A stretch of DNA of 29,149 nt from a virus: the IMG/VR virus record IMGVR_UViG_3300044675_001188, positions 1-29,149 of that record; one strand, given 5' to 3'. The notes beneath the pieces were generated by a model, which was not told where the DNA came from, did no database searches, and saw only the letters and a list, made by a program, of their open reading frames with translations. The stretch's first letter is position 1; every line of letters starts with the position of its first letter. The position numbers and the translations under genes were made by a program. This document shows, one piece after another, positions 16-29,149 of this stretch.

Positions 16-42
16 AGCAACCCACCCTTCTATTCGTTGATT

Positions 43-96: not shown

Positions 97-138
97 TATA
101 CACCCCACGGGGCTGGTCTATCCGTGTAGGGAATCTAT

Positions 139-12356: not shown

Positions 12357-14249
12357 TTATCCGTATTGTTCGGCCCATTGTTCTGAAAAGGCTTCATCTA
12401 GGTTGATTGTGTATCTTTGTGCTGACTGTGCTCTAGTTGTCCATCTGTTAGATGAAAACTTTTGCAAATGATTTGTTTGCTGCATGAACTCCCGTGCTCT
12501 AAGCACAGCAAACCATAACGCCATAACGCAGTCAGTCTTGCCCCTGCTATTAGGTTTCCAAGTTATCAACTGCTGAGTAAGGGACTTAAGTCCTTCAGAG
12601 TCAGTAGTAGATGGTAGTTCAATCATATTATTCTTTTGGAACTTCTCTTCTCGCATGGTTCCAAATAGGGTAGACATAGATGCTACACCGAATGCTGCGT
12701 CCCACTTATTTTTGTTAGTAACATGAGATTCAAGTCTTACACCATACATACCAAGCCATTGCCGCAAGTCATCATCTAATGAGTATGCCTTCTGGTGGGC
12801 GTTGATTTCTACTCTAAATTCTTGTGGCTTGTATTTCAATACAAGTTCTTCTATCGTACTTCGAATTTTTTGGGGAGTAGGTTCTGCCATGTTCACGCAG
12901 TCTAAAACATATATCCTAGAATCTATTCTGTTGTAAGTGATTACAACAAATGCTGCGTGGGCTTTATCTCCCATGGCAGGGTCAAATCCAATAATTGTGT
13001 AACCTTCTACCGCAGTCGGATGTCCCACGCCGCCTTGGCGCAATGGACCTTTTCTGCGTTGACCGTTGGTACTACCTTGCACCAAAGCGGGTGGGAAGAT
13101 GGAATCTTCTTCGACATCCTCCTGCTGATATACCAAGGCCCATGTTGATGGTGTTACCTCACTACGTCTTCTCTTTAATGCTAAGCCATCCCATTTCGGG
13201 AAGAGTCCTTCTTCGTCAGGTTCTTCAGAATCCCCATCCCAAGGAACATCCGATTTAGGCCAGAGCGTCTTCCAGTCTTTAGGGTCTTCCGAATACTCAA
13301 GAACAGCAGGCATGCCCATATAAGTAAAAGGGCTTTTACCACCAGACCAGTGCTTGGTCTCACGGAGTTCTTTGTAGAAGTCTTGCGCTGCAATTCGTGT
13401 CCCTACGATTAGTAACTTACCATTTTTACCCAGACGGGTAATAACTTCTTTTTGTAGCCAGTTGATTTGCTTTTCCCATTCATGGGCGTTGGCTGTTGTA
13501 ATACAGTCATCAAGAATGATGAGGTCAGCACGTGCTCCATAAATCTGCCCACCCATACCAAGTGCTTGGATGGTGGGGTCCTTCTCGCTAGAATTTCTAG
13601 CATCGCTCCCAAGGTAAACGGTGTCAACTCGCCAAGTGTCTGAATCTTCTTTCCAACCACCTTCAGGGCCAAAAGTTGTTTGCAACTTTAACCAGCGTGG
13701 ATGGGAGAGTCTCTGCTTGATGGCGTACACGAATTCACGTGCCTTGACCAGCGTTTTAGAAACCACGATAATGCGGATATTTGGATTGAGAGCGATACGG
13801 TATGTGGAGTAGTTTACGGTGACTACGGTACTCTTGGCGTGCTCAGGTGGCACGTTAACCAATAGACGGGCTGGGTCACCCTTTTCGTAAACCATACTAG
13901 GGTGGAGCCACGAAGGCTCTCTATCCTCTAGTAAGTCAATCCAATCTTGATGGTGTGGAAATAATCTTTGATTTAAGAATATCTCAGAAAACTGGGGGAA
14001 ATCTATTTCCTCTTTTGGGATACCTAGGGCTGCTAAAGAAGCATCCTTTGCGGTGGCTTTAGCCTCTGTCAGGTCGGCTGCAAATTTTTTGTCCCTGAGC
14101 ATCCAGATTCTGACGGTGTCTGGTTTCTTGCCACACATCTCCATAGCCTTATGGACAGAGTGGCCTTCGGCCACCAAGGCTAGAACTTTAGCCTTTGCTC
14201 CTGCCATAGCAAGAGATTTAGGGTTAGTACCCCCCTTTTCAAAACTCAT
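12357..14249 (-). CDS. terL: Terminase large subunit with N-terminal helix-turn-helix
   Basis: This is the motor and nuclease that cuts and pumps phage DNA into the prohead. Residues about 15-65 form a helix-turn-helix segment (AEGHSVHKAMEMCGKKPDTV), like the DNA-recognition part of a small terminase subunit. The ATPase carries a Walker A variant, VPPEHAKST, near 133-141 and Walker B LIILDD near 243-248. The RNase H-like nuclease domain starts at GFDPAMGD with a likely metal-binding Asp near 423. The length of 630 aa is long for a TerL, explained by the added N-terminal domain. ATG at 14249 has AGGA in good position. By eye this gene is richer in G+C than the genes downstream of it. No separate small terminase is visible in the window. 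Confidence 0.93.
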   Translation of the reverse strand: MSFEKGGTNPKSLAMAGAKAKVLALVAEGHSVHKAMEMCGKKPDTVRIWMLRDKKFAADLTEAKATAKDASLAALGIPKEEIDFPQFSEIFLNQRLFPHHQDWIDLLEDREPSWLHPSMVYEKGDPARLLVNVPPEHAKSTVVTVNYSTYRIALNPNIRIIVVSKTLVKAREFVYAIKQRLSHPRWLKLQTTFGPEGGWKEDSDTWRVDTVYLGSDARNSSEKDPTIQALGMGGQIYGARADLIILDDCITTANAHEWEKQINWLQKEVITRLGKNGKLLIVGTRIAAQDFYKELRETKHWSGGKSPFTYMGMPAVLEYSEDPKDWKTLWPKSDVPWDGDSEEPDEEGLFPKWDGLALKRRRSEVTPSTWALVYQQEDVEEDSIFPPALVQGSTNGQRRKGPLRQGGVGHPTAVEGYTIIGFDPAMGDKAHAAFVVITYNRIDSRIYVLDCVNMAEPTPQKIRSTIEELVLKYKPQEFRVEINAHQKAYSLDDDLRQWLGMYGVRLESHVTNKNKWDAAFGVASMSTLFGTMREEKFQKNNMIELPSTTDSEGLKSLTQQLITWKPNSRGKTDCVMALWFAVLRAREFMQQTNHLQKFSSNRWTTRAQSAQRYTINLDEAFSEQWAEQYG

Positions 14250-14275
14250 AGTCCTGTCCCGTTTTCATTAGTTGT

Positions 14276-14357
14276 AACAGTTCTTAAGTACAGTCTGTAA
14301 CGCAAGTCCCCCAAGGACTTGCTACTGTTAAAAACAGAAACAGTCTCTATACTGTTT
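14276..14357. promoter_or_regulatory. Cluster of ACAGT/ACTGT inverted sites upstream of the terminase
   Basis: Within 82 bases the word ACAGT or its complement occurs repeatedly: AACAGT at 14276, ACAGTCTGT at 14290-14298, CTGTT-AAA-AACAG at 14325-14337, and a perfect inverted repeat AAACAGT-CTCTAT-ACTGTTT at 14338-14357. The last contains TATACT (14349-14354). Such clustering just ahead of the late operon suggests operators for a dimeric regulator controlling leftward, and perhaps rightward, transcription. No convincing -35/-10 pair was found on the leftward strand. Confidence 0.4.
14302..14322. repeat. Perfect 8-bp hairpin inside the operator cluster
   Basis: GCAAGTCC (14302-14309) and GGACTTGC (14315-14322) are perfect inverted repeats around a five-base loop. 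No T-run follows on either side, so a terminator is unlikely. It lies between two ACAGT/ACTGT elements and could be a protein binding site or an RNA hairpin in the 5' leader of the terminase transcript. Confidence 0.5.
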
Positions 14358-14556
14358 AATCCGTCCAAAGGCCTAAAACGGACACTTTTATTTAAAGTAT
14401 TTTTTTATTAGCCCAAAAATCAGTATAAAATAGGACAAAAGGATACTGGTATGGGGGATATACCTTGTACGGGAAAATCTTTATTGCTGATACATATACT
14501 ACTTCTACTCTCCATTAATCACTCTGGGGTCAATACGACTCAGCCTACATCACATA
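14358..14556. other. Non-coding divergent region: AT-rich stretch and possible rightward promoter
   Basis: This stretch has no credible gene. About 14385-14437 is very AT-rich, with a long T-run and TATAAAAT, and could be an easily opened origin or promoter region. TATACT at 14495-14500 is a possible -10 for rightward transcription, but no good -35 lies 16-18 bases before it. GGTAT/ATACC form a small inverted repeat near 14448-14465. An 11-base word matching the core of T7-type promoters (AATACGACTCA) is at 14532-14542. Confidence 0.3.
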
Positions 14557-14802
14557 CAGGACCTGGTTGTCCTGATTAGAGAGACGCTGAGCGGATAGCA
14601 GTCTTCGGCGCAGGCCATTAGTAAATGGGCGCCTCAGTTAATAATAAATTTCGTGCTGACATGGCAGTAAAGCCCATGGAAAGACTGGGCTTGACAGCCA
14701 TGTAATGTGGGACTTGTTGTTAGTAAATAACTAATAACCGCATGGGATTTTCCCCTGCGCTTAGTGCTAGGGGAAAAGTCCCCTAGTGTAAAGGAGATAA
14801 TC
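14557..14802 (+). ncRNA. Highly structured leader RNA before the SSB-like gene
   Basis: Six hairpins follow one another. (1) CAGGAC/GTCCTG, 14557-14574. (2) GGCGC-CCATT with AGTA loop and AATGG-GCGCC, bulge AGG, 14607-14633. (3) Outer ACATGGC/GCCATGT and inner AAGCCCA/TGGGCTT, 14659-14703. (4) GTTGTTAGT/ACTAATAAC, nine pairs with one G-U, 14716-14738. (5) CGCA-GGG/CCC-TGCG, 14739-14759. (6) CTAGGGG/CCCCTAG, 14767-14786, ending three bases before AAAGGAG. TTTTCCCCT (14748-14756) can also pair perfectly with AGGGGAAAA (14769-14777). That pairing excludes hairpins 5 and 6, as expected of a switch. No known riboswitch class was recognised. A replication origin or DNA-level structure is an alternative. 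Confidence 0.55.
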
Positions 14803-15105
14803 ATGAATAAGTTCTCATTTGAGAATGCCCGTGTTAACAAGGTCTGGGATAACAAGAACCGTTTTAATCTTGGTATCCTTGACAGCAGAGCAGTTGCTCA
14901 ACCAGACGGTTCCTACCAATCCGTCTTCGTTGCTTCCCGCATCGTGACTACTGCTAACCCTGACCACCTTGAGTTCATCCGCAAAAATCTTGTGGATACC
15001 TCAGACGCAGTGGTCAACATCAGTGGTTACATGGAAACCAAGGCTGGCAAAAAGCCTGGCACTTGGTATGACAACCTCGTAATCACAGACATCGCACTGG
15101 CCTAA
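14803..15105 (+). CDS. Probable single-stranded DNA-binding (OB-fold-like) protein
   Basis: The 100-residue protein is beta-rich with alternating hydrophobic residues. Its C-terminal half (VNISGYMETKAGKKPGTWYDN, quoted to 20 residues as VNISGYMETKAGKKPGTWYD) has the strand-loop-strand look of SSB-like OB folds. It would coat single-stranded DNA during phage replication. It lacks the acidic C-terminal tip of bacterial SSB. ATG at 14803 is chosen over an in-frame GTG at 14764 because AAAGGAG (14790-14796) fits it, and the GTG lies inside hairpin 6. It is the first gene of the rightward replication block, directly behind a structured leader. The identification is by pattern only and could be another small OB-fold protein. 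Confidence 0.55.
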   Translation: MNKFSFENARVNKVWDNKNRFNLGILDSRAVAQPDGSYQSVFVASRIVTTANPDHLEFIRKNLVDTSDAVVNISGYMETKAGKKPGTWYDNLVITDIALA

Positions 15106-15117
15106 TAAACCAGCCTG

Positions 15118-15606
15118 ATGACATCATTTGCTTTGTCATCTTCTACGCAGTCCTTCTCATGCTCACACGAGAATCCAGCCACTTGGTTGGATACTCGTGA
15201 TGAGTATTGCGTAGAATGTAATCTACTTCAAGAAGGTTCTAGTGTGGAACACGCACTAAACTTTCAACAGATTAATAGGAGTGAGCAGGAGTCAGAACCT
15301 GCTCAATCCGTTAACACACCTGATGAGAAAGGGTATGGCCATCAATGGACTAACCGTGATGGCGAATACCTAGAAGGTGTATACGATATAACCAATCGTC
15401 TTCCCAGTTGGTTATTCCTTGGCAAACATGTCTTCCCTATGTTTGAACCAGATGAGATGACTGCTTATCTGGCTCTTCCATCATGGGCAGTGGTATGTAA
15501 TAGGTGCCACTACCAAATCAATAAGTATATGGGATGTCTAACTTGTGAAGTATGTATCACAACATACTCATGGTCTGGCATACCATTTAACTACAAAATA
15601 GTATGA
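15118..15606 (+). CDS. Protein with two Cys-rich, probably zinc-binding clusters (162 aa)
   Basis: No family is recognised. An N-terminal cluster has Cys15, His17 and CVEC (31-34). A C-terminal cluster has CNRCH (127-131) and CLTCEVC (140-146). Both have the spacing of zinc ribbons. The middle is acidic (residues about 50-75) and then aromatic, without membrane segments. It starts 12 bases after the SSB-like gene with only a weak ribosome binding site, so it may be translated by coupling. A probable terminator follows. A regulatory or nucleic-acid-binding role is likely but unproven. Confidence 0.6.
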   Translation: MTSFALSSSTQSFSCSHENPATWLDTRDEYCVECNLLQEGSSVEHALNFQQINRSEQESEPAQSVNTPDEKGYGHQWTNRDGEYLEGVYDITNRLPSWLFLGKHVFPMFEPDEMTAYLALPSWAVVCNRCHYQINKYMGCLTCEVCITTYSWSGIPFNYKIV

Positions 15607-15612
15607 CAAATG

Positions 15613-15656
15613 GCAAGGTGGGGTTATTGCCTCACCTTGCTACCAAAAATTTTTTT
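15613..15656 (+). terminator. Probable rho-independent terminator
   Basis: GCAAGGTG (15613-15620) pairs with CACCTTGC (15633-15640), extended inward by two or three pairs. A seven-T run follows at 15650-15656. The run starts nine bases after the stem, with an A-run between, which weakens the call. A second perfect hairpin, TTTGCG/CGCAAA (15659-15674), follows at once. Together they may end or attenuate the first rightward transcript. Confidence 0.5.
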
Positions 15657-15714
15657 ATTTTGCGGGACCGCAAAGTAGGTTCATTGGATAACTACGAGTC
15701 GAACAGGAGTATGT

Positions 15715-15870
15715 ATGTATCTAGATACAGGAACAATGATAGGTATTATGATAGCCCTTATTGCTAGCATCTTGACCATTGGATATAGCATCTATATAAT
15801 CAAGACACAGAACGAAATCATTCAGCGCATGAGTGATGTATCTGCAACCAGACGCAAGATGGAAAGGTAG
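15715..15870 (+). CDS. Tiny single-pass membrane protein (51 aa)
   Basis: ATG at 15715 follows AGGAG with five bases of spacing. The protein has a short N-terminus, one hydrophobic segment (residues about 8-29, MIGIMIALIASILTIGYSIY), then a charged helical tail ending RRKMER. It resembles many tiny phage membrane proteins of unknown role (spanin-, holin- or host-membrane-modifying). It opens a run of four very short, mostly overlapping genes leading into the transglycosylase. Confidence 0.6.
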   Translation: MYLDTGTMIGIMIALIASILTIGYSIYIIKTQNEIIQRMSDVSATRRKMER

Positions 15871-15876
15871 ATAGCA

Positions 15877-16041
15877 ATGAGAACAGAACAAGAACTACTT
15901 AGAATCAAAGAAGCATTTGCCCTATCAACAATGGACATGCTTGATGTATTTGACGAGTTGCTTGCAACAGGCAGGCTATATGTAAACGATGAGCCAACAG
16001 TTAATGACCTCGCCAAAAATCAGGATGAATCCAATGCTTGA
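15877..16041 (+). CDS. Small acidic protein (54 aa)
   Basis: The ORF opens with ATG at 15877, six bases after the preceding stop. The protein is acidic and helical (MDMLDVFDELLATGRLYVND), without Cys or membrane segments. The 3' end overlaps the next gene. A weak AGATAGCA precedes the start, so coupling to the tiny membrane gene is likely. No family is recognised. It is supported by its fit between neighbours more than by its own signal. Confidence 0.5.
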   Translation: MRTEQELLRIKEAFALSTMDMLDVFDELLATGRLYVNDEPTVNDLAKNQDESNA

Positions 16042-16219
16042 CGAGGATACTCCCCAATGGGAGCACACCGTTTGGATTCTAGCCAAAGTTAGGTGCCGAA
16101 CCACACATATAAATATAGATACAGCAGGTGACGAAGCCCTTGATGACCCATCAGAGTGGCATGTGTTAGAGTTTGATAAGGGTGTTAAGCACAGCCAAGA
16201 GATTGTAAGGGTGAAATGA
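16025..16219 (+). CDS. Small acidic protein (about 64 aa)
   Basis: The core reads WEHTVWILAKVRCRTTHINI followed by an acidic segment (DEALDDPSEWHVLEFD). This looks like a small compact alpha/beta protein. Three in-frame ATGs are possible: 15989, 16025 and 16034. AGGA at 16022-16025 would serve 16034 best, while 16025 gives a short overlap with the previous gene. The stop overlaps the next start as ATGA-type coupling. The function is unknown. Confidence 0.55.
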   Translation: MNPMLDEDTPQWEHTVWILAKVRCRTTHINIDTAGDEALDDPSEWHVLEFDKGVKHSQEIVRVK

Positions 16220-16314
16220 TTGAACAAATCTTTGCAAGTTCATACCTCACAACGACACAATCCTGGACATTCTTATTACTCTTTGGATATATCACATGGA
16301 GGTTTATTAGATGA
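16216..16314 (+). CDS. Tiny membrane protein (32 aa)
   Basis: The ORF starts inside the previous stop (AAATGA) and its own stop lies inside the next start (AGATGAAG). This four-base ATGA overlap at both ends is typical of coupled genes. After a polar N-terminus it has one hydrophobic segment (residues about 17-30, SWTFLLLFGYITW) and a short basic end. Its size alone makes the call uncertain, but the double coupling argues for a real gene. It could assist the secreted transglycosylase that follows. Confidence 0.5.
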   Translation: MIEQIFASSYLTTTQSWTFLLLFGYITWRFIR

Positions 16315-16730
16315 AGAGATTGTTAGCAGGGTATTTAAGTTGGCTACTAGCGTTCTTATCAATACCATTCTTTCCCAGTCCAGCATACGCAGTAGCAGTA
16401 GCAACACAATTGCAAAACAACTGCATAGACACATCTACCTGGACACCACGAGTAGCCAAGGCATACGCCAAAGCCTTGATGAAATGGGAGTACCCACATT
16501 GGAACAGGTCTGAATACACAGCACTAGCAAAACTTTGGGGTAAAGAATCTGCCTGGAAACACACAGCAGATAACCCTGAGTCTACTGCTGGTGGAATCCC
16601 ACAAATATTAGGGCTTGACCCTAAGACACCAGCCCCGCTTCAGATTGAGCGGGGGCTGGCGTATATCCAACACCGCTACAAGAAACCATCAGTTGCATGG
16701 GCACATTGGCGTGCAAATGGGTGGTACTAA
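16311..16730 (+). CDS. Secreted lytic transglycosylase-like protein
   Basis: It would cleave the glycan strands of host peptidoglycan outside the membrane. Residues 1-27 form a signal peptide (KR, hydrophobic core, then SPAYA before the likely cut). The SLT-type catalytic domain shows LWGKESAW with the likely catalytic Glu near 79, then NPESTAGGIPQIL, and ends with the actinobacterial-style AWAHWRANGWY. The mature domain is small (about 110 aa). It lies in the early/middle block, far from the lysis cluster at 25023-25741. That suggests a role other than final lysis, for instance wall opening, superinfection exclusion or a virion-associated lysin. Confidence 0.82.
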   Translation: MKRLLAGYLSWLLAFLSIPFFPSPAYAVAVATQLQNNCIDTSTWTPRVAKAYAKALMKWEYPHWNRSEYTALAKLWGKESAWKHTADNPESTAGGIPQILGLDPKTPAPLQIERGLAYIQHRYKKPSVAWAHWRANGWY

Positions 16731-16751
16731 ACCAACAACTAAAGGAGATAT

Positions 16752-17180
16752 ATGGCACGAGGTAATGGCAGGACAATCAATGTAAAATTACCCACAGCAA
16801 AGGTAATTACTGCATTGCAACAAGCACTAGCCAAGTTAGAACTTGACTACAAATCACAGGATGAAGCCGAAGTAAAGTATCAAAAGGCTACAGAAAAATG
16901 GCGCAAAGATGTTATCAAGTTTGCAATTGATAACATATCAAAAGCAGAAAACATACGCACTACTTATCGTCAATGGAATGGCAATCTTAATGTTGATTTT
17001 GATTTAGCAATTAAAGAGAATGCACTTCCAAAAGAACCAGAGCGTGAGTTTGAAATAATGCATGCTAGTACTTACAATGAGATGAAGGAAGAAATGTCAA
17101 ATGCCATTCGCATCCTTCAACTCACTGATGAGAAAACGGTATCAACATCTACTTACAATTCAATAGCCAGGTATTTGTAA
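16752..17180 (+). CDS. Hypothetical helical protein (142 aa)
   Basis: AAAGGAGATAT precedes the ATG. The protein opens with a basic, beta-like stretch (RTINVKLPTAKVITAL) and continues with long charged helices, probably partly coiled coil (about residues 20-75). No Cys, signal or known motif is visible. The gene is followed by a hairpin before the DUF4192-like gene. The function is unknown. Confidence 0.6.
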   Translation: MARGNGRTINVKLPTAKVITALQQALAKLELDYKSQDEAEVKYQKATEKWRKDVIKFAIDNISKAENIRTTYRQWNGNLNVDFDLAIKENALPKEPEREFEIMHASTYNEMKEEMSNAIRILQLTDEKTVSTSTYNSIARYL

Positions 17181-17186
17181 CAAGTC

Positions 17187-17215
17187 GGGCGTCTGCCAAT
17201 AGGGGCAGCACGCCC
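17187..17215 (+). promoter_or_regulatory. GC-rich hairpin just before the ribosome binding site
   Basis: GGGCGTCTGCC (17187-17197) pairs with GGCAG-C-ACGCCC (17204-17215), eleven pairs with one bulged C. AAAGGAG starts six bases later. There is no T-run, so it is more likely a stability, processing or translation-control element than a terminator. Confidence 0.5.
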
Positions 17216-17233
17216 TCTAACAAAGGAGATACA

Positions 17234-17782
17234 GTGATAGATACAGACTATGACCTACTTCGCAGTGAAGTAAAGTCCGAGTTGATTAATCAAGAAGGTA
17301 AGTACAATCCAAGTGACCGTGATACTAATGTTCGTATTGTTGAGGACATTCGTAAAGCAATTGACGGTATAGCAGATGGTGTTATACCATCAGCCACACA
17401 CATAGCAGAAGTAGCAATTGCAACCAATGCTAACCTACAAATCCGTGACTTTATGATGGGTGTTCAACAAGAAAAAGATATCAACTATGTAGGTGAATAC
17501 ATATCATTACTTGGTAATGTTATTGTCAAAGACAAAGCAATCCCATTAGCCACAGTATTTTGTGGATACTTATATCAAACTGAAGACACAGAACTAGCCA
17601 AAGAAATGTTGGTTGATATACTAACTCTTGACCCAGAGTATCCATTAGCAAAACTATTAAGCCGAGTATTCTTGGCTGAGTGGCCAGCAAATGAGTTTGC
17701 TAAAATGGCACAACAACTACACTCTAAAGTTGTTGATACTATCTACGCAATAGATACTGAGGAAGTAACCAATGACAACTGA
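17234..17782 (+). CDS. DUF4192-like protein (182 aa)
   Basis: The start is GTG at 17234, with AAAGGAG six bases upstream. The C-terminal half matches the recalled pattern of DUF4192, an actinobacterial and actinophage family of unknown function: a helix PLATVFCGYLYQ, then ELAKEMLVDILTLDPEYPLAKLL and a short Pro-containing end. The N-terminal half is helical and acidic. It overlaps the DUF932 gene by 11 bases. The assignment is from memory of the family pattern and is only moderately certain. The biochemical role is unknown. Confidence 0.55.
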   Translation: MIDTDYDLLRSEVKSELINQEGKYNPSDRDTNVRIVEDIRKAIDGIADGVIPSATHIAEVAIATNANLQIRDFMMGVQQEKDINYVGEYISLLGNVIVKDKAIPLATVFCGYLYQTEDTELAKEMLVDILTLDPEYPLAKLLSRVFLAEWPANEFAKMAQQLHSKVVDTIYAIDTEEVTNDN

Positions 17783-18758
17783 TACTCTCATACACGGAGC
17801 CGTACGCAAGAGCGCATGGCACAAAGCAGGCGTAGCAGTAGAGGCTACATCAGCCAGTGAGGTAGCCAGTCAAGCAGGATTAGACTGGTCAGTATCATTG
17901 CATGATATCGAGGCTAACTATCAAGTGCCAGGTAACGAATCAGTTAATCGTATACCAATTGATAACAAGAAAGCAGTTATTAAAACCATGCCAACAGGTG
18001 AGACATCAGCCATTGGCGTAGTAGGTAACCGCTATAAAGTATTTCAGAATGCAGAAATCTTTGGTGCATTAGATAACTTAATTGATTCTAGTGGACTTAG
18101 ATACGCAGCCGCAGGTGAGTATGATGGTGGTGCAAAAGTCTGGATGCTAATGGAAACTCCAATGGAGATGACCATTGCAGATGACCCGCACTCAGCCTTC
18201 TTACTAGCCAGGACTAGCCACGATGGCAGCAGTTCAGTCATAATTAAACCAGTGATTGAGCGTTTGTTTTGTATGAATCAAATCAATAAGATATACAAGA
18301 ACAATAACAAGTATACTTACAGTTTAAATCATACAAGCAATGCAATGCTATCAGTGTCAGAGATTGCCAACATCATACGATTAACCTATGATATGGCTAA
18401 TGATTACACCGCATTGGCAGATACATTACTTGATAGAAAAGCAAGTCATGAGCATGCTAAAAATTATTTCAAGCGTGTGTTCCCACTACCTAGTAAGATA
18501 GAGGAAGCACCGTATCATTTGTTATCAACAGGTGAGAAGAAACAATTTACCAATGCAATCAATGCTAGAACTAAATCATTTGATATCTATGCTACCTCTC
18601 CTACACAGGAGAACATACGGGACACAGAGTTCGGTATGTGGCATGCAGTTATAGAATGGGCTGACTACAACGCTAAGGGTAAGAACTTAGCAGTTAGCAC
18701 AATGGCTGGCCGTAATGATAGTATTAAAACTAAAGCCCTAGAATTACTAGGCGTTTAG
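17772..18758 (+). CDS. DUF932 family phage/plasmid-like protein
   Basis: The 328-residue protein shows the typical family features. It has a Trp-rich opening (KSAWHKAG), the central signature GVVGNRYKVFQNAEIF near residues 80-95, a beta-rich core, and a helical C-terminal region with Lys/His-rich segments. Family members occur in phages and plasmids next to replication or recombination genes, but no activity is established. The start overlaps the preceding gene and GAGGAAG provides a ribosome binding site. It probably belongs to the replication/recombination set that follows. Confidence 0.8.
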   Translation: MTTDTLIHGAVRKSAWHKAGVAVEATSASEVASQAGLDWSVSLHDIEANYQVPGNESVNRIPIDNKKAVIKTMPTGETSAIGVVGNRYKVFQNAEIFGALDNLIDSSGLRYAAAGEYDGGAKVWMLMETPMEMTIADDPHSAFLLARTSHDGSSSVIIKPVIERLFCMNQINKIYKNNNKYTYSLNHTSNAMLSVSEIANIIRLTYDMANDYTALADTLLDRKASHEHAKNYFKRVFPLPSKIEEAPYHLLSTGEKKQFTNAINARTKSFDIYATSPTQENIRDTEFGMWHAVIEWADYNAKGKNLAVSTMAGRNDSIKTKALELLGV

Positions 18759-18771
18759 AATAGGAGATAGA

Positions 18772-19224
18772 ATGACAATGTACTATACAGAACTAGATGG
18801 TACTGAACCAACAGTATCTACACAGGTAGGTGGTATTAAGTATACCTTTACCAATGAATCGCTTACTAAATTAATAGAAGAAAAAGAACAACTTAAAATA
18901 GAACTAGCACAACTTGAACGCAAGTTTAGAAGTGCTCGCTTTGATGTAAGAGAATTCTTTCAATCTAGATATGAAACAGATAGTGATGAGATTGTATGTG
19001 AAGTAGACGATGTTAATAATTTACTTATAAACCTAGAAACTGAAGCGTTAACTAGGTCTTGGTCAGCAACAGTCACTATCACAGCCACAGTTACAGGTAT
19101 AGAAGCACCTAATGCAGAAGCAGCCCAAGAAATTCTTGATGATGCTTTTGAGGTTAACCTAACGGTTGATGGTGATGTATGGGTAGATGATGTATCAATT
19201 GAATCAGTACACGCTGAATCATAA
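18772..19224 (+). CDS. Hypothetical coiled-coil/beta protein (150 aa)
   Basis: After a short beta-like N-terminus, residues about 30-60 form a strong coiled coil (LIEEKEQLKIELAQLERKF). The C-terminal half is acidic and rich in Thr/Val strands (SATVTITATVTGIEAP). No known domain is recognised. AGGAG precedes the ATG. The gene ends 16 bases before the leader of the exonuclease gene. The function is unknown. Confidence 0.6.
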   Translation: MTMYYTELDGTEPTVSTQVGGIKYTFTNESLTKLIEEKEQLKIELAQLERKFRSARFDVREFFQSRYETDSDEIVCEVDDVNNLLINLETEALTRSWSATVTITATVTGIEAPNAEAAQEILDDAFEVNLTVDGDVWVDDVSIESVHAES

Positions 19225-19240
19225 TGTGATACACTAATCT

Positions 19241-19293
19241 TGGGTGCCCTGGTTTCGGCTATCTCCTTTCTCAGGGCAACCCATAAAAGGAGA
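19241..19293 (+). promoter_or_regulatory. Possible RNA switch: hairpin whose loop is complementary to the ribosome binding site
   Basis: TGGGTGCCCTG (19241-19251) pairs with CAGGGC-A-ACCCA (19272-19283), eleven pairs with one bulge. Its 20-base loop contains TCTCCTTT (19262-19269), a perfect complement of AAAGGAGA (19286-19293), the ribosome binding site of the exonuclease gene (ATG 19296). Either the two structures exclude each other, or a pseudoknot forms if only the inner six pairs of the stem are kept, leaving an eight-base connecting loop. Both would hide the site. The loop also resembles the 3' tail of 16S rRNA. Confidence 0.5.
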
Positions 19294-19295
19294 AC

Positions 19296-20060
19296 ATGAC
19301 ACAAGAAATAGATAGAGATAGATACGGCAGACCATTGATAGTGCCACCCAAAGGTGGCAAACCAGTGGCCTATACACGAGCAACTACAATAGCCAATTCA
19401 TTAGATGATGCATCAGCATTAGTAGCATGGAAAATGCGGATGGCTGCGATAGGTTTAACAACCAGACCAGATATATTATTATCTATTACTGCAGCACAAG
19501 AAGATAAGATGGCAGTTAACTCTTTGATTGAAGATGCTATGCAAGTAGCAGGCGCAAACAAAGCAGCCAACATAGGTACAGCAATCCATTCATTTGCTGA
19601 ACGATTAGATTTAGGACAAGACTTAGGTGTAGTACCAGATGAATGGGCACCAGATATAAAAGCATATGAACATGCAACTAAGATTCTCAACAATAAGTTC
19701 ATCGAACAGTTTAGTGTGTTAGACAAATACAATATTGCTGGCACACCAGACAGAGTTGTTGAGTATAAAGGCGAGTTATTTATTGCAGATATTAAGACTG
19801 GTCGCATAGACCATCCAAGTAATATCGCAATACAGTTAGCAATCTATGCTAACGGCTTGCCGTATGATGGTGCCACGGCAACCCGTGGTACATGGGGCGA
19901 AGTAAACAAAGATAAGGCAATCATTATCCATCTACCCGCAGGAACAGGCACGTGCAAGTTAGTGTGGATAGATATTAAAGAAGGCTGGAAAGGTTTACAA
20001 TTAGCCATGAAAGCAAGAAAGTGGAGAGACCAGAAAGGTTTAACCACTTCATTTGAATAG
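19296..20060 (+). CDS. RecB/Cas4-like PD-(D/E)XK exonuclease
   Basis: This is probably a DNA end-processing nuclease for phage recombination or replication. In the 254-residue protein the motifs appear in the family order: GTAIH near 94-98, GTPDRVV with Asp near 152, IADIKTG with the catalytic Asp165/Lys167 pair, and a Gln-containing helix QLAIYAN near 180. No Cys cluster is present, so it is not an iron-sulfur Cas4. The leader carries a possible translation switch. It is followed after seven bases by a gene that may act with it, as exonucleases and annealing or ssDNA-binding proteins often do. Confidence 0.82.
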   Translation: MTQEIDRDRYGRPLIVPPKGGKPVAYTRATTIANSLDDASALVAWKMRMAAIGLTTRPDILLSITAAQEDKMAVNSLIEDAMQVAGANKAANIGTAIHSFAERLDLGQDLGVVPDEWAPDIKAYEHATKILNNKFIEQFSVLDKYNIAGTPDRVVEYKGELFIADIKTGRIDHPSNIAIQLAIYANGLPYDGATATRGTWGEVNKDKAIIIHLPAGTGTCKLVWIDIKEGWKGLQLAMKARKWRDQKGLTTSFE

Positions 20061-20067
20061 GAGAAAA

Positions 20068-20520
20068 ATGAGTAGCACTGAAGCACCAATCAGTATCAAT
20101 CTCAAAACAGCAGGAGGCACACAGATAACTCTGCGTGCAGAAACAGCAGACCAATTTGCTGACATGATTGCACAGGGTATACATGTTATAACCGATGCAG
20201 TTACTGAAGTAGAACTAGCAGTCAAAGGGACATCAGCAAACAAGCCGATGTCAGTAGCAGACATTGCCTCTAGTTTCAATGCAAACATAGCATCCACAGA
20301 ATCAGGTGGAGAAGAAACAGTAGAAGATAAATGGGGTAACACTTGGGTATACAACAAGCCAGGTGCACCATCATGTGAACGTGGTGTCATGGTTCTTAAG
20401 TATGGCAAAGCACAGGCAACTGGCAAACCATACAAAGCATTCTATGACCCAGCAGCAGGTCCTCGTTGGACTGGGCCAAAAGTTCCAACAGAACTACGTA
20501 CTAAGCCAATCTTTGCTTAG
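20068..20520 (+). CDS. Hypothetical protein beside the exonuclease (150 aa)
   Basis: ATG at 20068 follows AGGAG. An earlier in-frame TTG at 20053 lies before that site and is rejected. The N-terminal half is beta/helix mixed. Residues about 95-150 form a basic, aromatic, beta-like domain with WGNTWVYNKPGAPSCERGVM and YKAFYDPAAGPRW, resembling small DNA-binding end domains of SSB-like phage proteins. Only one Cys is present, so a zinc ribbon is unlikely. A role as ssDNA-binding or annealing partner of the exonuclease is a guess from position. Confidence 0.6.
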   Translation: MSSTEAPISINLKTAGGTQITLRAETADQFADMIAQGIHVITDAVTEVELAVKGTSANKPMSVADIASSFNANIASTESGGEETVEDKWGNTWVYNKPGAPSCERGVMVLKYGKAQATGKPYKAFYDPAAGPRWTGPKVPTELRTKPIFA

Positions 20521-20533
20521 TATTTTATAGTAA

Positions 20534-20564
20534 ATGGGGGCTGAGTCGTGGTGCCAGCCCCCAT
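20534..20564 (+). promoter_or_regulatory. Perfect 10-bp hairpin before the helicase ribosome binding site
   Basis: ATGGGGGCTG (20534-20543) pairs perfectly with CAGCCCCCAT (20555-20564) around an 11-base loop. AAAGGA follows seven bases later. No T-run is present, so an intrinsic terminator is unlikely. It may control translation or mRNA stability, as proposed for the similar hairpins ahead of three other genes in this block. Confidence 0.55.
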
Positions 20565-20582
20565 CTACAGTAAAGGAAAACA

Positions 20583-21401
20583 ATGAAAACATTAATTAGA
20601 AGTGTTAACAATACAAATGTAGGTGGCGAACCTTTACCTGCCGTCTTTAAAGTATTTGAAAATGCAGGAATGATATTACGTAGAGCAGAGGTAACGGTAA
20701 TAGCAGGCACCCCAGGTGCAGGTAAGTCATCAATTGCCTTAGCAATTGCAGCCAAAACTAAACTGCCAACTCTTTACTTTAGTGCAGATACCAATGCACA
20801 CACCATGGCAATGAGATTGATTGCTATGACTGGTAACATCAGCCAGCAACAAGCAGAACAACTAATTAAACGTCAGCCAGAAAAAGCAAAAGAAGTATTA
20901 GCCAATGGTAATCATTTGTTTTGGTGCTTTGAATCCAGCCCAACACTAAAAGATTTAGATGAAGAAGTATCAGCATTTGAAACCATTTGGGGCAAGAGCC
21001 CAGCACTTATAGTTGTAGATAATCTTATGGACATAGCAATGGATGGACACGATGAGTTCGGTGGTATGCGTGCAGCCATGAAAGAACTTAAGTATCTAGC
21101 CAGAGATACAAACGCAGCACTACTTGTATTGCACCATACCAAAGAAGGATATGAAGGTAGTCCGTGTCAGCCAAGGTCGTCAATCCAAGGGCTAGTCAAT
21201 CAGATACCAGCAATGGTATTAACTATTGGTCAAATGAAACAAGCAGATATGAATTACTTATGCGTTGCTGCAGTTAAGAATCGCTATGGCAAGGCTGACC
21301 AAACAGGTAACAACTATGTTACTCTTGCATTCAACCCAGAATCTATGTATCTAGATGATGTTATGATTCGTTATATGCCACAGCAACAGGAGTTTGAATG
21401 A
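20583..21401 (+). CDS. RecA/DnaB-fold ATPase, probable replicative helicase core
   Basis: The 272-residue protein carries a Walker A motif, AGTPGAGKSS near 41-50, and a Walker B strand, ALIVVDNLMDI near 141-151. A later strand, AALLVLHHTKE, is typical of DnaB/RepA-like hexameric helicases and related AAA_25 ATPases. It has no N-terminal DnaB domain, so it is a minimal helicase core, shorter than DnaB (about 450 aa). With the split primase a few genes downstream it would form the replication motor. A RecA-like recombination or loading ATPase cannot be excluded. Its stop overlaps the resolvase start by four bases. Confidence 0.78.
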   Translation: MKTLIRSVNNTNVGGEPLPAVFKVFENAGMILRRAEVTVIAGTPGAGKSSIALAIAAKTKLPTLYFSADTNAHTMAMRLIAMTGNISQQQAEQLIKRQPEKAKEVLANGNHLFWCFESSPTLKDLDEEVSAFETIWGKSPALIVVDNLMDIAMDGHDEFGGMRAAMKELKYLARDTNAALLVLHHTKEGYEGSPCQPRSSIQGLVNQIPAMVLTIGQMKQADMNYLCVAAVKNRYGKADQTGNNYVTLAFNPESMYLDDVMIRYMPQQQEFE

Positions 21402-21739
21402 GCAATCCACGCAAAGCAAAGGGTTCCAGCGCAGAAAGAGATGTAGTTAATTGGTTAAAGAAATGGTACCCATATGTAGAGCGTAGGATTGCAGGTGCAC
21501 ACTTAGATAAAGGAGACATAGCAGGAGTTAATGGTGTAGTTATAGAGGTAAAAAACCACAGAAAGTTAGACCTATCCGCATGGGTAAAAGAACTAGAAGT
21601 AGAAATTCAAAATGATAAAGCATGGACAGGTGTAGTCATACACAAACGAACAGGTAAAGGAGATGTAGGAGAATGGTATGCAACGATGCCAGCAAAAATA
21701 TGGATAGAATTAATTAGGAAGATTAATGGACAAACATGA
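21398..21739 (+). CDS. Hjc-like Holliday junction resolvase
   Basis: A 113-residue nuclease with the archaeal/phage Hjc plan: a basic start with KGSSAERDVVNWL (Glu near 13), KGDIAG (Asp near 40), then VVIEVKNH with Glu50/Lys52 forming the PD-(D/E)XK active site. It would cut branched DNA during recombination or packaging. ATGA overlaps link it to the ATPase before and the primase zinc-finger gene after. A general VRR-NUC-type nuclease is the alternative. Confidence 0.75.
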   Translation: MSNPRKAKGSSAERDVVNWLKKWYPYVERRIAGAHLDKGDIAGVNGVVIEVKNHRKLDLSAWVKELEVEIQNDKAWTGVVIHKRTGKGDVGEWYATMPAKIWIELIRKINGQT

Positions 21740-22067
21740 TGTATCTGCCTACTTAGCACACGTAGGCGCCACCCTGCCAGCAGTGGGGCATGGTTGGCGC
21801 AAGATGAAGTGCCCATTTCACGGAGATAAACACGCATCATCAGCCGTTAACTACGAAGAAAATAGATTCAAATGTTTTGGTTGTGAAGCACAAGGTGATG
21901 TATATGATTTAATAATGTATAAAGAAGGAGGTAATTATATTGAGGCTATCAAATTCGCAGAGAGCATATCTCTTGCAGGCAACAGACCAGTACGCAAAGG
22001 ACCTGCATCTGGCAACAGAGTATCTTTCAACTCGGCATCTATCGGTAGAAGAGGGCAGAAGTTTTAG
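21726..22067 (+). CDS. Primase zinc-finger (CHC2) protein, overlapping the TOPRIM gene
   Basis: The 113-residue protein has the CHC2 zinc-binding domain of DnaG-type primases: CPFHGDKHASS with Cys29/His32, then FKCFGC with Cys50/Cys53, then the helix YIEAIKFAESI that normally ends this domain. The last 30 residues are basic and disordered. The catalytic TOPRIM part lies in the next reading frame (+1) and overlaps by 128 bases. It may be a separate zinc-finger subunit that recognises initiation sites, or the N-terminal part of a frameshift-fused primase. Confidence 0.78.
   Translation: MDKHDVSAYLAHVGATLPAVGHGWRKMKCPFHGDKHASSAVNYEENRFKCFGCEAQGDVYDLIMYKEGGNYIEAIKFAESISLAGNRPVRKGPASGNRVSFNSASIGRRGQKF
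21925..21931 (+). promoter_or_regulatory. Near-perfect ribosome binding site inside the zinc-finger gene
   Basis: AAGGAGG (within AGAAGGAGGT) lies eight bases ahead of TTG at 21940, the first codon of the TOPRIM gene. It is stronger than most sites in the window and supports internal initiation of a separate TOPRIM protein. Such internal sites can also stimulate frameshifting. Confidence 0.65.
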
Positions 22068-22572
22068 CCTAGGTGTAGTAGCAAACCCATTGCCAGGACA
22101 CGAGGTATATAAAAATAGGTTAGCAATCCCTTACATAACACCATCAGGTGTGGTTGATATCAGGTTTAGAAGCATGAACAATCACGAAGACCCTAAGTAT
22201 ATGGGTGTACCTGGGGCTAAGACTACAATGTTTAATGCACAGATAGTATTAACAGCAGGTAGTTATGTATGTGTAACTGAAGGTGAGTTAGATACAGTAG
22301 TGCTATCAGTTAAGACAGGTCATCCATCAGTTGGTATACCTGGAGTTAATAACTGGAGGCCATACTATGCAAAGATACTAGATGATTTTGAAACAGTAAT
22401 TGTATTAGCAGATGGTGACAACGCTGGCTTAGAGTTTGGTAAGAGACTAAGCAGAGAACTACATAATGTTAATCTCTTACAAATGCCAGAAGGACACGAT
22501 GTTAACAGTATCATTGTGCAAGAAGGAAAGGAGTGGATAGATGAGCGAATTCGAAAATGCTTGGGCAACTGA
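21940..22572 (+). CDS. Primase TOPRIM-domain protein
   Basis: The 210-residue protein has the catalytic core of a DnaG-like primase. An N-terminal helical part (ATEYLSTRHLSVEEGRSFSL) matches the start of the DnaG core. The TOPRIM motif CVTEGELDTVVL carries Glu114, and VIVLADGDNAG carries Asp158/Asp160 for metal binding. It lacks its own zinc finger, which is encoded by the overlapping upstream gene, and lacks a fused helicase. The start is TTG at 21940 behind a strong ribosome binding site. The split falls at the domain boundary, arguing for two functional proteins rather than damage. The end overlaps the next gene by 32 bases. Confidence 0.8.
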   Translation: MRLSNSQRAYLLQATDQYAKDLHLATEYLSTRHLSVEEGRSFSLGVVANPLPGHEVYKNRLAIPYITPSGVVDIRFRSMNNHEDPKYMGVPGAKTTMFNAQIVLTAGSYVCVTEGELDTVVLSVKTGHPSVGIPGVNNWRPYYAKILDDFETVIVLADGDNAGLEFGKRLSRELHNVNLLQMPEGHDVNSIIVQEGKEWIDERIRKCLGN

Positions 22573-22852
22573 CGAAGATTTTTGGGAGTTTGTTGGAGAC
22601 AATAGAAAGTTAGTTGGCATAGCAATATCAAATGGTCAAGGACTAGACATTCTTAATGCACTTAAAGATATCTATACAACAATAGAAAAAGAACCAGAGA
22701 GTGCTATGCGTATGCTTACACTACTGGGTACAGTTATATATGCCAGCAGCATAGGTGAAGGTAAACAATTTACAGATGAGATACAAGTAGTATCAGCAAT
22801 GGAACAATTCGATAGCAGTATGAAGGAGATGTTAGATGAAGAATCCAAATGA
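22541..22852 (+). CDS. Hypothetical acidic helical protein (103 aa)
   Basis: The ATG follows AAAGGAG with seven bases of spacing. The protein is acidic and mainly helical (DILNALKDIYTTIEKEPESA), without Cys, signal or known motif. It overlaps both neighbours. Its place between primase and the DUF1599-like gene suggests the replication block. The function is unknown. Confidence 0.6.
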   Translation: MSEFENAWATDEDFWEFVGDNRKLVGIAISNGQGLDILNALKDIYTTIEKEPESAMRMLTLLGTVIYASSIGEGKQFTDEIQVVSAMEQFDSSMKEMLDEESK

Positions 22853-23117
22853 TGTTGATGTAATACTCAACGAACTGCGTAGTATTATGATGAAGAAGCA
22901 GGAAGATTACGGACCTTTAAATATAGCCCTTGCCCCTGGCGGTGCTATGAATGGGCTGAGGGTTAGGATGTATGACAAACTGGCTAGGCTAAATAACATG
23001 GCTGGTAAGGACGCCACGCCCAATTTTGAATCAATAGAAGATACCCTTATAGACCTGGCTAACTATGCAATAATAGGACTATTGGTACAAAGAGGACAGT
23101 GGGAAGGCATTAACTAA
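22836..23117 (+). CDS. DUF1599-like (nucleotide-modification-associated) protein
   Basis: The 93-residue sequence carries the pattern recalled for DUF1599: MMKKQEDYGPLNIALAPGG, then RMYDKLARLNN, and IEDTLIDLANYAIIGLL at the end. The family is linked by comparative studies to phage nucleotide or DNA modification and resembles the all-helical MazG-type nucleotide pyrophosphatases. The activity is not established. No other base-modification gene is visible in the window. AAGGAG precedes the ATG, and the gene overlaps the previous one by 17 bases. Confidence 0.7.
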   Translation: MKNPNDVDVILNELRSIMMKKQEDYGPLNIALAPGGAMNGLRVRMYDKLARLNNMAGKDATPNFESIEDTLIDLANYAIIGLLVQRGQWEGIN

Positions 23118-23120
23118 CGA

Positions 23121-23786
23121 ATGAATCAAGAGTGGGTACAAGAGTATGATTTGCTTGTGTCTACGCTTGGCATGGAGTATTCCAGAAAATATTCTATAGT
23201 TGAACCTTCAGATATAAAACAGATTTTATGGATGTGGTTTGTTACCCATCCAAATAAATATACAGAATGGTCCAAGTTACCACCCAAAGATAAAGAAAAA
23301 CTAATTGCAAAGTCATTGCGTAATGCTGCTCTTAAATATTGTGAGCAAGAAAAAGCCCGTAAGTTTGGTTACGATATGGTTGACCTGTACTACTATGACC
23401 CATCAGTTATCGAAGCATTTTTGCCATCTATCCTGGCGGATAGTTATGAGATACCTAGTAAAATACAAGACCTTAACTTTAAGTTTGGTAAATCAGGAGA
23501 AGTAACAGACGGAAACAATTGGTTAGTTCTCAGGTCAGATATAGAAAAAGCATTCAACAAGTTAGCAGAGGCTAAACAAAATATTTTAAGGCTAAAATTT
23601 ACAACAGATAACTACGAGTGGAATGACTTAGCCAAAGAATTAAACACATCTGCTGATGGTGCACGCAAGAGAGTTAGCCGTGCAATTAACTCTTTGATTA
23701 GAGTACTGGGTGGATGGCGTACTTACAACGATACAGATAACTTAGAGGCTAAAGAAGAAGAAGAAGAAGATGACACAAGAGCCTAA
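23121..23786 (+). CDS. Sigma-factor-like DNA-binding protein
   Basis: The 221-residue protein has a helical, aromatic N-terminal half (IKQILWMWFVTHPNKYTEW) that could correspond to sigma region 2. The C-terminal helix-turn-helix is like region 4: AEAKQNILRLKFTTDNYEWN, then LAKELNTSADGARKRVSRAI. A highly acidic tail ends the protein. It could redirect host RNA polymerase to phage late promoters. No clear ribosome binding site lies close to the ATG, so coupling to the DUF1599-like gene, four bases away, is likely. A general helix-turn-helix regulator is the alternative. Confidence 0.65.
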   Translation: MNQEWVQEYDLLVSTLGMEYSRKYSIVEPSDIKQILWMWFVTHPNKYTEWSKLPPKDKEKLIAKSLRNAALKYCEQEKARKFGYDMVDLYYYDPSVIEAFLPSILADSYEIPSKIQDLNFKFGKSGEVTDGNNWLVLRSDIEKAFNKLAEAKQNILRLKFTTDNYEWNDLAKELNTSADGARKRVSRAINSLIRVLGGWRTYNDTDNLEAKEEEEEDDTRA

Positions 23787-24009
23787 AGAAATAAAAGATT
23801 TATTTAAAAAAGATTACAGCAATGCTATGGACCTACGTGGTAATCCCATTGGAGATATATGTGTATGTGGTTCACAATTATTTACAGCAATAGTAGCCTT
23901 TGAATCTGGCGAGATAGCATTTTACTTTTTAGATGGTGAGTGTGTAGACTGTGGCTCATTGGTAACTCTACCCACACCAATAGATGATATAGGAATGGAT
24001 TGTATGTAA
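23770..24009 (+). CDS. Small zinc-ribbon protein (79 aa)
   Basis: ICVCGSQ and ECVDCGS supply two Cys pairs about 25 residues apart, the classic zinc-ribbon plan, with beta-strand residues between. The N-terminus is Lys/Asp-rich and the C-terminus hydrophobic/acidic. It overlaps the sigma-like gene and ends at the TAATG start of the next small protein. It is likely a transcription- or nucleic-acid-linked accessory. No named family is recognised. Confidence 0.65.
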   Translation: MTQEPKEIKDLFKKDYSNAMDLRGNPIGDICVCGSQLFTAIVAFESGEIAFYFLDGECVDCGSLVTLPTPIDDIGMDCM

Positions 24010-24170
24010 TGCCCTACTATGATTTTGAGTGCAAGATATGTACTAAAGTAGAAGAAACAAATGATTCTGCTGCACCATTCTGTGACTCTTGCGGAAATCT
24101 TATGACTCGTATATGGTCCTCTACACCAGTACATTTTAAAGGAAGTGGCTTCTACTCAACAGGAGGATAA
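24009..24170 (+). CDS. FmdB-family zinc-ribbon protein (53 aa)
   Basis: A short gene starting in a TAATG overlap. It reads MPYYDFECKICTKVEE, then FCDSCGNLMTRIW, and ends VHFKGSGFYST. This matches the FmdB/CxxC-CxxC-SSSS zinc-ribbon family (Cys8, Cys11, Cys25, Cys28). The conserved start MP-Y-E and the ending FKGSGFY are characteristic. Members are small regulatory-type proteins of unclear role. AGGAGG near its 3' end probably serves the next small gene. Confidence 0.75.
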   Translation: MPYYDFECKICTKVEETNDSAAPFCDSCGNLMTRIWSSTPVHFKGSGFYSTGG

Positions 24171-24171
24171 G

Positions 24172-24294
24172 ATTAAAAGACTACGTCATCTATTTTGTTT
24201 TAATTATATGTGGAAAGTAATAGACCCAAGTAAATCTTTATGGCATCTTAAGTGTACTAGGTGTGGTTATCAAGAGGTGATTAATCTTGATTGA
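24172..24294 (+). CDS. Tiny zinc-ribbon-like protein, possibly with an ATT start
   Basis: An open frame ends at 24294 with LKCTRCGYQEVINLD, a typical half zinc ribbon, preceded by an aromatic stretch containing one more Cys (FCFNYMW). AGGAGG at 24161-24166 points to an ATT codon at 24172 (40 aa). The first ATG, at 24208, has no ribosome binding site and gives only 28 aa. ATT is a rare but known start. The gene overlaps the start of WhiB. It is plausible but not certain. Confidence 0.4.
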   Translation: MKRLRHLFCFNYMWKVIDPSKSLWHLKCTRCGYQEVINLD

Positions 24295-24947: not shown

Positions 24948-24975
24948 AAGGGGACTGCTTAGAAAACAAAAAAGA

Positions 24976-25006
24976 CCCCCGCTCCAGTAGTAATACTGGG
25001 CGGGGG
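24976..25006. terminator. Strong bidirectional terminator between converging operons
   Basis: CCCCCGC pairs with GCGGGGG, and inside it CCAGTA (24984-24989) pairs with TACTGG (24994-24999), with one bulged T and a GTAA loop. An A-run lies before (24968-24973) and a T-rich run after (25008-25018), so it works in both directions. It separates the rightward block (ending 24947) from the leftward lysis genes (ending 25023). Confidence 0.9.
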
Positions 25007-25022
25007 ATTCTTTTATTTATAA

Positions 25023-25211: not shown

Positions 25212-25222
25212 TTATTGCTCCT

Positions 25223-29148: not shown

Positions 29149-29149
29149 T

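Follow-up and report, generated by a model that had tools for sequence, protein, structure and literature searches.

A hairpin row with two mutually exclusive pairings before the ssb gene of an uncultured phage: a possible two-state translational leader

To our knowledge, translational self-control of phage SSBs is known mainly from T4-like and filamentous phages. The target RNA of M13 gp5 is of another form than the element described in the following. According to the excerpted text of PMC535899, T4 gp32 binds a structured 5' element and spreads from there over a less structured RBS, the target RNA of this gene 32 operator diverges between T4 and RB69, and M13 gp5 is an mRNA-specific translational repressor. 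Two further systems are comparable, as far as excerpts of the respective papers go. The STAXI motif is a structured RNA near ssb and other DNA-handling genes (Weinberg 2010, PMC2864571), and HK022 put provides stem-loops in early phage transcript leaders (PMC9378689).

Here, we analysed a window consisting of a whole virus record of 29,149 bases, whose terminase gene is read leftward from 14249 and whose first gene in the opposite, rightward direction opens at 14803. The initial annotation had called the latter gene SSB-like. Its 100-aa product had no match at E 0.001 in either Pfam or PHROG. In the case of its AlphaFold model (mean pLDDT 73.7), all 12 Foldseek matches at E<=0.001 were SSB structures, with Rim1 (E 2.1e-4) and E. 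coli SSB (E 8.9e-4) on top, and named phage SSBs were also among the structural matches in the viral library. Therefore, the label was right. Among phage records, no relatives were found of the window SSB, of the window leader DNA or of the second-group SSB described below, and GTDB genomes yielded no relatives either. Terminase relatives among phage records reached 59% identity, and because 29 of these 93 records were Streptomyces phages, we infer an actinobacterial host. One record, OX376640 (L085), held neither an SSB homologue nor the motif in its 11-kb stretch. As a separate observation, the - strand of OX376640.1 at 1-3300 carries repeated hairpins between small genes, e.g. CCCCGC..GTTCGAGAC..GCGGGG, which by eye resemble a tRNA acceptor and T arm without the remainder; ARAGORN detected no tRNA in this hairpin stretch.

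The features of the leader, with the evidence for each, are the following.

14495..14500, + strand: TATACT, candidate -10 box of a putative early rightward promoter (GATACATATAC, invariant across 31 aligned SSB-type leaders)
14557..14574, + strand: H1, six-pair hairpin, not conserved (fold, leader alignment)
14581..14605, + strand: H2, hairpin with a bulge, part of the shared 5' module, CTG..CAGTC (fold)
14607..14633, + strand: H3, hairpin GGCGC/GCGCC, likewise in the shared 5' module (variable pair, module count)
14659..14703, + strand: H4, long hairpin with internal loops; at least three types replace one another, the window having type I (alignments)
14716..14738, + strand: H5, nine-pair hairpin, structure kept and sequence variable (two-sided changes, G.U)
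14739..14759, + strand: H6, 5' hairpin of state B, CGCA.GGG..CCC.TGCG (alignments)
14744..14782, + strand: state A, GGGATTTTCCCCT / AGGGGAAAA(G)TCCC as a long bulged hairpin, GCGC/GTGC at its apex (incompatible with H6 and H7)
14767..14786, + strand: H7, the state B hairpin CTAGGGGA AAAG TCCCCTAG, ending 3 nt before the Shine-Dalgarno sequence (alignments)
14769..14773, + strand: AGGGG, strand common to states A and B (three-strand covariation)
14790..14796, + strand: AAAGGAG, Shine-Dalgarno (SD) sequence (AAAGGAGATA in 44 of 44 SSB-type loci with upstream bases shown)
14803..15105, + strand: first rightward gene, modelled SSB-fold protein of 100 aa (AlphaFold and Foldseek)

The TATACT box is a candidate only, since no sigma-70-type promoter match was obtained in 14200-15200 and other relatives carry GATACTACACTG or similar at this site.

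A row of six hairpins had been described in this region. All of the stems were present, and seven were counted (H1-H7). The details given for the row agreed with our folds: the nine-pair stem is H5, H2 is bulged and H4 has internal loops, and H7 stops three bases short of AAAGGAG. Likewise, the pairing of TTTTCCCCT (14748-14756) with AGGGGAAAA (14769-14777) is exact and wipes out the last two hairpins, H6 and H7. Folded as RNA, 14557-14802 showed an MFE of -95.8 kcal/mol (z -5.5), and folded as DNA a z of -6.9, with 0 of 200 shuffles as good in either case. When windows were slid along the + strand across 29 kb, three of 579 were equally stable, the hairpin region itself among the three. Strands of 6 nt that are perfectly complementary to sequence both upstream and downstream were located at four sites of the + strand and two of the - strand of the window, 14769 included; as shuffles contained on average 0.3 and at most 2 per strand, this three-strand arrangement is uncommon but not unique in the window. 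Altogether, the hairpin row is real and, H1 excepted, conserved. Elsewhere, around 15101-15400, the next gene (15118-15606) begins with sequence as foldable as the leader (MFE -99.1 for 15151-15396), and CTACGCA..TGCGTAG may close a large fold in the coding sequence there.

SSBs of the window type were present in 46 IMG/VR loci (82-100% identity over the best segment), and the 20-base H7 motif in 45 viral stretches. In 38 distinct leaders, H6, H7 and the SD were nearly invariant; within this type H6 and H7 showed no two-sided change and G.U changes only. H5 showed two-sided changes at five of its nine pairs (alignment A2, 27 rows). For the H5-H7 structure on A2, 98.8% of cells were paired, compared to at most 50.5% when the structure was slid, and the covariation score was reached by 0 of 500 shuffles. 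Compensatory changes in relatives, which the initial annotation had proposed to look for, are present in these five pairs of H5 as well as in the variable pair of H3, in H4 type II and in states A and B, all described below.

The strand was judged from the imperfect pairs. In 25 of the 27 rows, the non-Watson-Crick cells of H5-H7 comprised 66 G.U at nine pair positions and no A.C (27 and 0 for H5 alone); one invariant G.U end pair of H7 provides 25 of the 66, the remaining 41 lying at eight pairs. The two rows left out, L002 and L005, were misplaced by MAFFT, and both form H5 in their own register. Because these departures are G.U only and never A.C, the pairing pattern of H5-H7 is pointing to a + strand RNA, in a test whose structure came from a program that allows G.U. 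A permissive strand-symmetric test, with one wrongly extracted row (L010) included, gave GT 28/AC 1 for H5, GT 15/AC 1 for H7, 1/1 for H6 and 14/15 for H3, and was reversed for H4 type I (AC 5/GT 1). H3 and H4 showed no G.U excess, and the upstream part H0-H4 no strand bias. The MFE of the whole leader was better on the + strand in 34 of 36 distinct window-type leaders and better on the - strand in 11 of 12 leaders of other relatives; leader z-scores displayed no consistent preference. Whole-leader folding energy was rejected as a strand test as its signs conflict between relative groups, so that the strand is called only from G.U versus A.C in H5-H7.

A second pattern scan retrieved 46 stretches which, with 17 of the 45 H7-motif stretches not among them, make 63, and an SSB homologue lies directly downstream in 63 of 63. 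These include a second group of SSBs, about 36% identical to the window SSB (36% for L209, 34-38% for a set of five). Its ssb starts 1115-1616 bases from the terminase (among the best 80 of 401 terminase relatives), is preceded by an ORF of 128-158 aa (eight examined) and has a hairpin with a UCCCCU..AGGGGA core immediately before its SD. Judged from these gene orders, the element follows ssb and not the operon start. Among the same best 80 of 401, 44 loci had an SSB HMM match; 38 of them contain the core by pattern and two more, L189 and L191, by the H7 motif. The remaining four, L194-L197, lack the core and have an unrelated hairpin GTAGTAGGA..TCCTGCTAC at the equivalent place, and their SSB is 61% identical to that of the window.

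A new covariance model from phage leaders, another check suggested at the outset, extended this distribution. The model R1, built from the window type and the second SSB group and run on 48 sources, located the element before further ssb or possibly SSB-like genes: L155, L164/L165 and L174 (E 7e-11 to 2e-10), L208 (E 1e-8, downstream SSB 44% identical to the window's), L188, L192 and L199 (E 1e-7 to 2e-6) and, weakly, L207 (E 0.11). All matches inspected were ahead of a small gene; since R1 includes the SD itself, the weakest ones are not to be over-read. On larger phage records, R1 matched at E<=0.1 in 14 of 14, and the best match was the described element by position in 13, the record of L207 having the weak one only. 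The SSB HMM misses both the L155/L164/L165/L174 and the L188/L192/L199 gene families, and profile comparison of the L188/L192/L199 protein with the window SSB returned no match. In the model of the L192 protein (pLDDT 65), SSB structures held ranks 1 and 3-9, none significant, the best being the small SSB of Mycoplasma pneumoniae (E 0.018), and the L174 protein showed DUF3217 at E 0.0055, below Pfam's cut-off. An SSB-like nature of both families is weakly supported.

Weaker second R1 matches were seen about 2-2.7 kb downstream in several records. In the window, this match (17188-17239, E 0.07) is ahead of a conserved 182-aa gene (17234-17782), with a hairpin GGGCGTCTGCC..GGCAGCACGCCC at 17184-17217 directly before its SD; the gene product has DUF4192 similarity below Pfam's cut-off. 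In all nine orthologues fetched (L270-L274, L276-L279), AAAGGAG closely follows a hairpin whose sequence varies, GGGCGUC..GACGCCC being the usual form. Given these hairpins and the unrelated one in L194-L197, hairpins ahead of SDs may be widespread in these phages rather than a switch specific to SSB. A second weak R1 match was also noticed on the - strand of L174 (711-771), before a gene that by eye resembles the window's 15118 gene.

The core of the leader is, on the alignments, the alternative pairing. AGGGG has its partner either in the upstream strand (state A) or in the downstream strand (state B, hairpin H7), and the state A helix is extended by GGGA (14744-14747) with TCCC (14779-14782), G14778 being bulged. 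In a 23-row alignment of the window type and the second SSB group, 92.4% of state A cells were paired compared to at most 60.0% when slid, and 97.3% compared to at most 60.9% for the extended state B helix; columns 29-48 were C-G in 12 rows and A-U in 11. The wider alignment A7 has 15 distinct rows from five clades. Here, state A was 96.1% paired (at most 68.6% slid) with two-sided changes at three of seven pairs, and state B 85.2% (at most 56.3% slid) with two-sided changes at two of nine, the covariation score being reached by 0 of 500 shuffles for both. Only cells paired, cells changed and covariation score were above shuffles on A7; the number of pairs with two-sided change was not (64 of 500 for state A, 389 of 500 for state B). 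Where the shared strand differs, both of its partners differ with it: CCCCU/AGGGG/CCCCU in the window versus CCCUU/AAGGG/CCCUU in L188/L192/L199. This three-strand covariation belongs to one clade and consists of G to A in column 28 with C to U in columns 12 and 41. Both exclusive helices are therefore conserved with compensatory changes, except for weak columns of state B on A7 (27/42 unpaired in eight of 15 rows, 26/43 in seven of 15).

The third strand was also compared to chance. The state B hairpin was stronger than with mononucleotide-shuffled 3' flanks in each of six clades tried, with p between 0.002 and 0.091, in segments cut by hand once the pairings were known: 0.002 for the window, 0.023-0.060 for three second-group rows, 0.091 for L208, 0.031 for L174, 0.054 for L192 and 0.035 for L207. 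Calculated energies of the window at 37 C were -26.6 kcal/mol for state A and -26.5 kcal/mol for state B, most of the SD being unpaired in either state, and in 12 window-type rows the two lay within 6 kcal/mol. For the second SSB group, the calculation favoured state A by 3.8-11.3 kcal/mol across its 11 rows, so the elements of this group may be plain hairpins. From 37 to 8 C, A minus B in the window moved only from -0.1 to +3.0 kcal/mol, i.e. a weak thermometer.

Upstream, the leader is of a different, modular character. The divergent regions of 78 of the best 80 of 401 terminase relatives were examined; in several, the terminase is 97-99% identical and the gene order nevertheless different. 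Among these best 80, 67 had at least 430 nt upstream; the block GTACGG(G)AAAATC is present in 65 of them and the H3 module in 59, the latter missing from L146, L155, L164, L165, L173, L174, L175 and L200. Because 39 of the 59 carriers have no window-type H7 motif, the H3 module is part of the operon's 5' end and not of ssb. From the end of the GTACGG(G)AAAATC block to the first ORF there are 308-654 nt in 11 other relatives (end points set by hand). In 26 distinct sequences, the H2 CTG/CAG was invariant (26 of 26) and the variable pair of H3 was G-C in 20, C-G in four and unpaired in two. The alignment of this 5' module leaves out 22 entries (seven window-type, nine of the L146/L155/L164 kind, six truncated or divergent) as well as L018 and L206; the H3 module count was made independently of it. 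The H2 sequence also occurs ahead of other first genes, H3 reads GGGC/GCCC in L194-L196, and H1 has an A.C in L001 and a different sequence in many relatives. In the case of H4, cassettes are swapped between unrelated stems (38 distinct leaders aligned): type I had 84 of 84 cells paired (six rows), type II had 157 of 160 (98.1%) with two-sided changes at five of 16 pairs (10 rows), and type III is found in L018. H2-H5 is thus part of a modular early-operon 5' leader. Two candidates were rejected by reading, namely a short ORF (ATG..TAA) in H4 type I, broken in L024 and absent from type II, and a CTCTCC close to the 5' end, a would-be anti-SD that L021, L022, L024 and L080 have lost.

Other leaders of this group also attracted attention. 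L131, L133, L142, L150, L188 and L192 have hairpin-rich early leaders of 524-650 nt with a better fold on the - strand, and Rfam gave no match in the members scanned. A three-way-junction-like block TTGTCAAATCGCC..GGCGATT..TGACAA is common to leaders of this type and occurs also in L018, L138, L157 and L171. The L164 leader is very strongly structured (z -13.5 on the + and -16.5 on the - strand) and has nested inverted repeats; the divergent regions of L164, L155 and L174 differ from the other leaders. Upstream of the terminase, a hairpin GCAAGTCC/GGACTTGC at 14302-14322 has compensatory versions GTTC/GAAC and GCCC/GGGC in relatives. Early leaders in this uncultured phage group thus comprise several hundred structured bases, none reaching an Rfam threshold.

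The alignments show that both pairings exist, covary and are kept before very different SSB genes and small genes that may be SSB-like. The RNA is real, conserved and probably regulatory, and a switch for the amount of SSB is probable because related viruses keep both foldings though the proteins are very different. More specifically, we regard it as an even call whether 14739-14796 is a cis-acting two-state translational leader of ssb, probably under autogenous control. In one fold, the purine strand AGGGG would pair with the pyrimidine strand upstream, and the resulting long bulged hairpin would, in the window, keep the 7 nt ahead of the SD unpaired; in the other, its partner would be the pyrimidine strand downstream, in the window forming a stable hairpin that ends within 3 nt of the SD. 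The two folds would then set the initiation of ssb translation, state A being the presumed permissive and state B the presumed restrictive one, and by analogy with T4 gp32 the regulator would most likely be the SSB itself. A translation- or transcription-controlling switch had been put forward in the initial annotation. A switch-like + strand RNA by the RBS is supported for H5-H7, with covariation, G.U only and both pairings kept across divergent SSB genes. No terminator-like site (GC hairpin and U run), of the kind an attenuator would need, was located in 14200-15200, and the element stays with ssb behind other ORFs, and for these reasons translation control fits better than transcription control. 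An independent structured phage RNA, also mentioned there, was unsupported for H5-H7, which reach the SD without a terminator.

Some of the same observations suit other explanations. The hairpin could serve processing or stability, as an RNase III type cut or protection site between cistrons that leaves a stable 5' end by the SD, the second pairing being a by-product of C-rich strands. Bulged hairpins stand right before the SDs of the 182-aa early gene and others too, L194-L197 retain a hairpin of different sequence, and state A is energetically dominant in the second SSB group, all of which such a site would explain. A third complementary strand would, however, be superfluous for it, whereas the downstream strand follows the changes of the purine strand and forms a hairpin that beats its shuffled flanks (p 0.002-0.091) in each clade tried; we consider this explanation unlikely, though it is the chief competitor. 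A two-state switch could also answer to another operator, i.e. a phage or host protein, a small RNA, a metabolite, temperature or co-transcriptional folding alone. This agrees with the near-isoenergetic states in the window group, with the modular leader upstream and with similar hairpins ahead of another early gene, and becomes quite improbable in view of the SSB homologue behind 63 of 63 motif-bearing stretches and, for temperature, of the small shift of A minus B on cooling.

Two further explanations take the row as a whole. As an early-transcript antitermination leader of the HK022 put type, the hairpins would modify RNA polymerase where the early operon begins. Put RNA is described, in the excerpt of PMC9378689, as two stem-loops in early phage leaders, and the presence of the H3 module in 59 of 67 relatives (among the best 80 of 401), of which 39 lack a window-type H7, would suit such a function. 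H6/H7-type elements, however, precede ssb even behind other ORFs, and terminator-like sites in 14000-29149 were not clearly above shuffles (13 versus a mean of 9.9, sd 3.5, both strands), making this reading very improbable. Least probable of all, to the point of being nearly discounted, is a DNA element, single-stranded or cruciform, in the interval from terminase to early genes, i.e. a replication origin or packaging site. A single-stranded DNA origin had been named from the start as the main alternative, and the divergent intergenic region beside the terminase, the DNA fold (z -6.9), the missing G.U excess of H3/H4 and a few A.C changes noted by eye in the relatives' H0 agree with a DNA element. 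For H5-H7 it is disfavoured by G.U-only departures, by direct adjacency to the SD and by the location between cistrons before ssb in relatives; for H0-H4 the lack of strand bias stands.

Returning to the two-state translational leader, a broader generalisation can be offered only tentatively and is rather doubtful. The element might represent a new class of leader RNA in uncultured phages, in which three strands (pyrimidine, purine, pyrimidine) form a switch directly before SDs. Its tie to ssb function would be close enough for it to persist while the SSB gives way to OB-fold versions that look unrelated; looser forms ahead of other early genes would make up a small regulon, and the switch would come last, on the 3' side, in a modular structured leader of at most some 650 nt.

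In line with the earlier remark that no known class was recognised, Rfam gave no match at gathering thresholds for the window and 20 relatives, and permissive scans of three stretches gave weak unrelated matches only. No covariance model of a known Rfam riboswitch or leader, or of STAXI, matched; STAXI is presumably among the 4227 Rfam models used. No tRNA or tmRNA was detected in the window, and the open-licence full texts listed for ssb leader control and phage structured RNAs included none on the element. Control through a phage ssb leader is a known idea, and the RNA architecture found here was matched to no described family. STAXI, as given in the excerpt of PMC2864571, is a tandemly repeated pseudoknot, and no such repeat was seen here. 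HK022 put, in the excerpt of PMC9378689, is an RNA of about 70 nt with two stems acting on RNA polymerase, whereas the present element follows ssb and not a promoter; an early leader position independent of the next gene was found for the H3 module and not for H6/H7. M13 gp5 is alike in being an SSB-type protein that represses a specific mRNA (PMC535899, in part).

The closest likeness in position is to the T4/RB69 gene 32 operator, where, in the excerpt of PMC535899, a structured element 5' of a phage ssb RBS is followed by a less structured RBS region. The element described here likewise lies in a phage ssb 5' leader next to the RBS (63 of 63 stretches, SSB fold). The T4 operator is a pseudoknot of about 28 nt with UUAAA/UAAA repeats (PMC535899, in part), whereas here two exclusive nested hairpins share one purine strand. 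The consensus folds are nested hairpins by programs that do not predict pseudoknots, and instead of UUAAA/UAAA repeats in the RBS a single UAAA is found between H7 and the ATG (14787-14802). In a further difference from T4, the model of the window protein shows an OB-fold SSB resembling E. coli SSB and Rim1, and the phages are uncultured. If the two-state reading is true, these phages would have a second, structurally different solution to phage SSB self-control in the form of a compact RNA switch.
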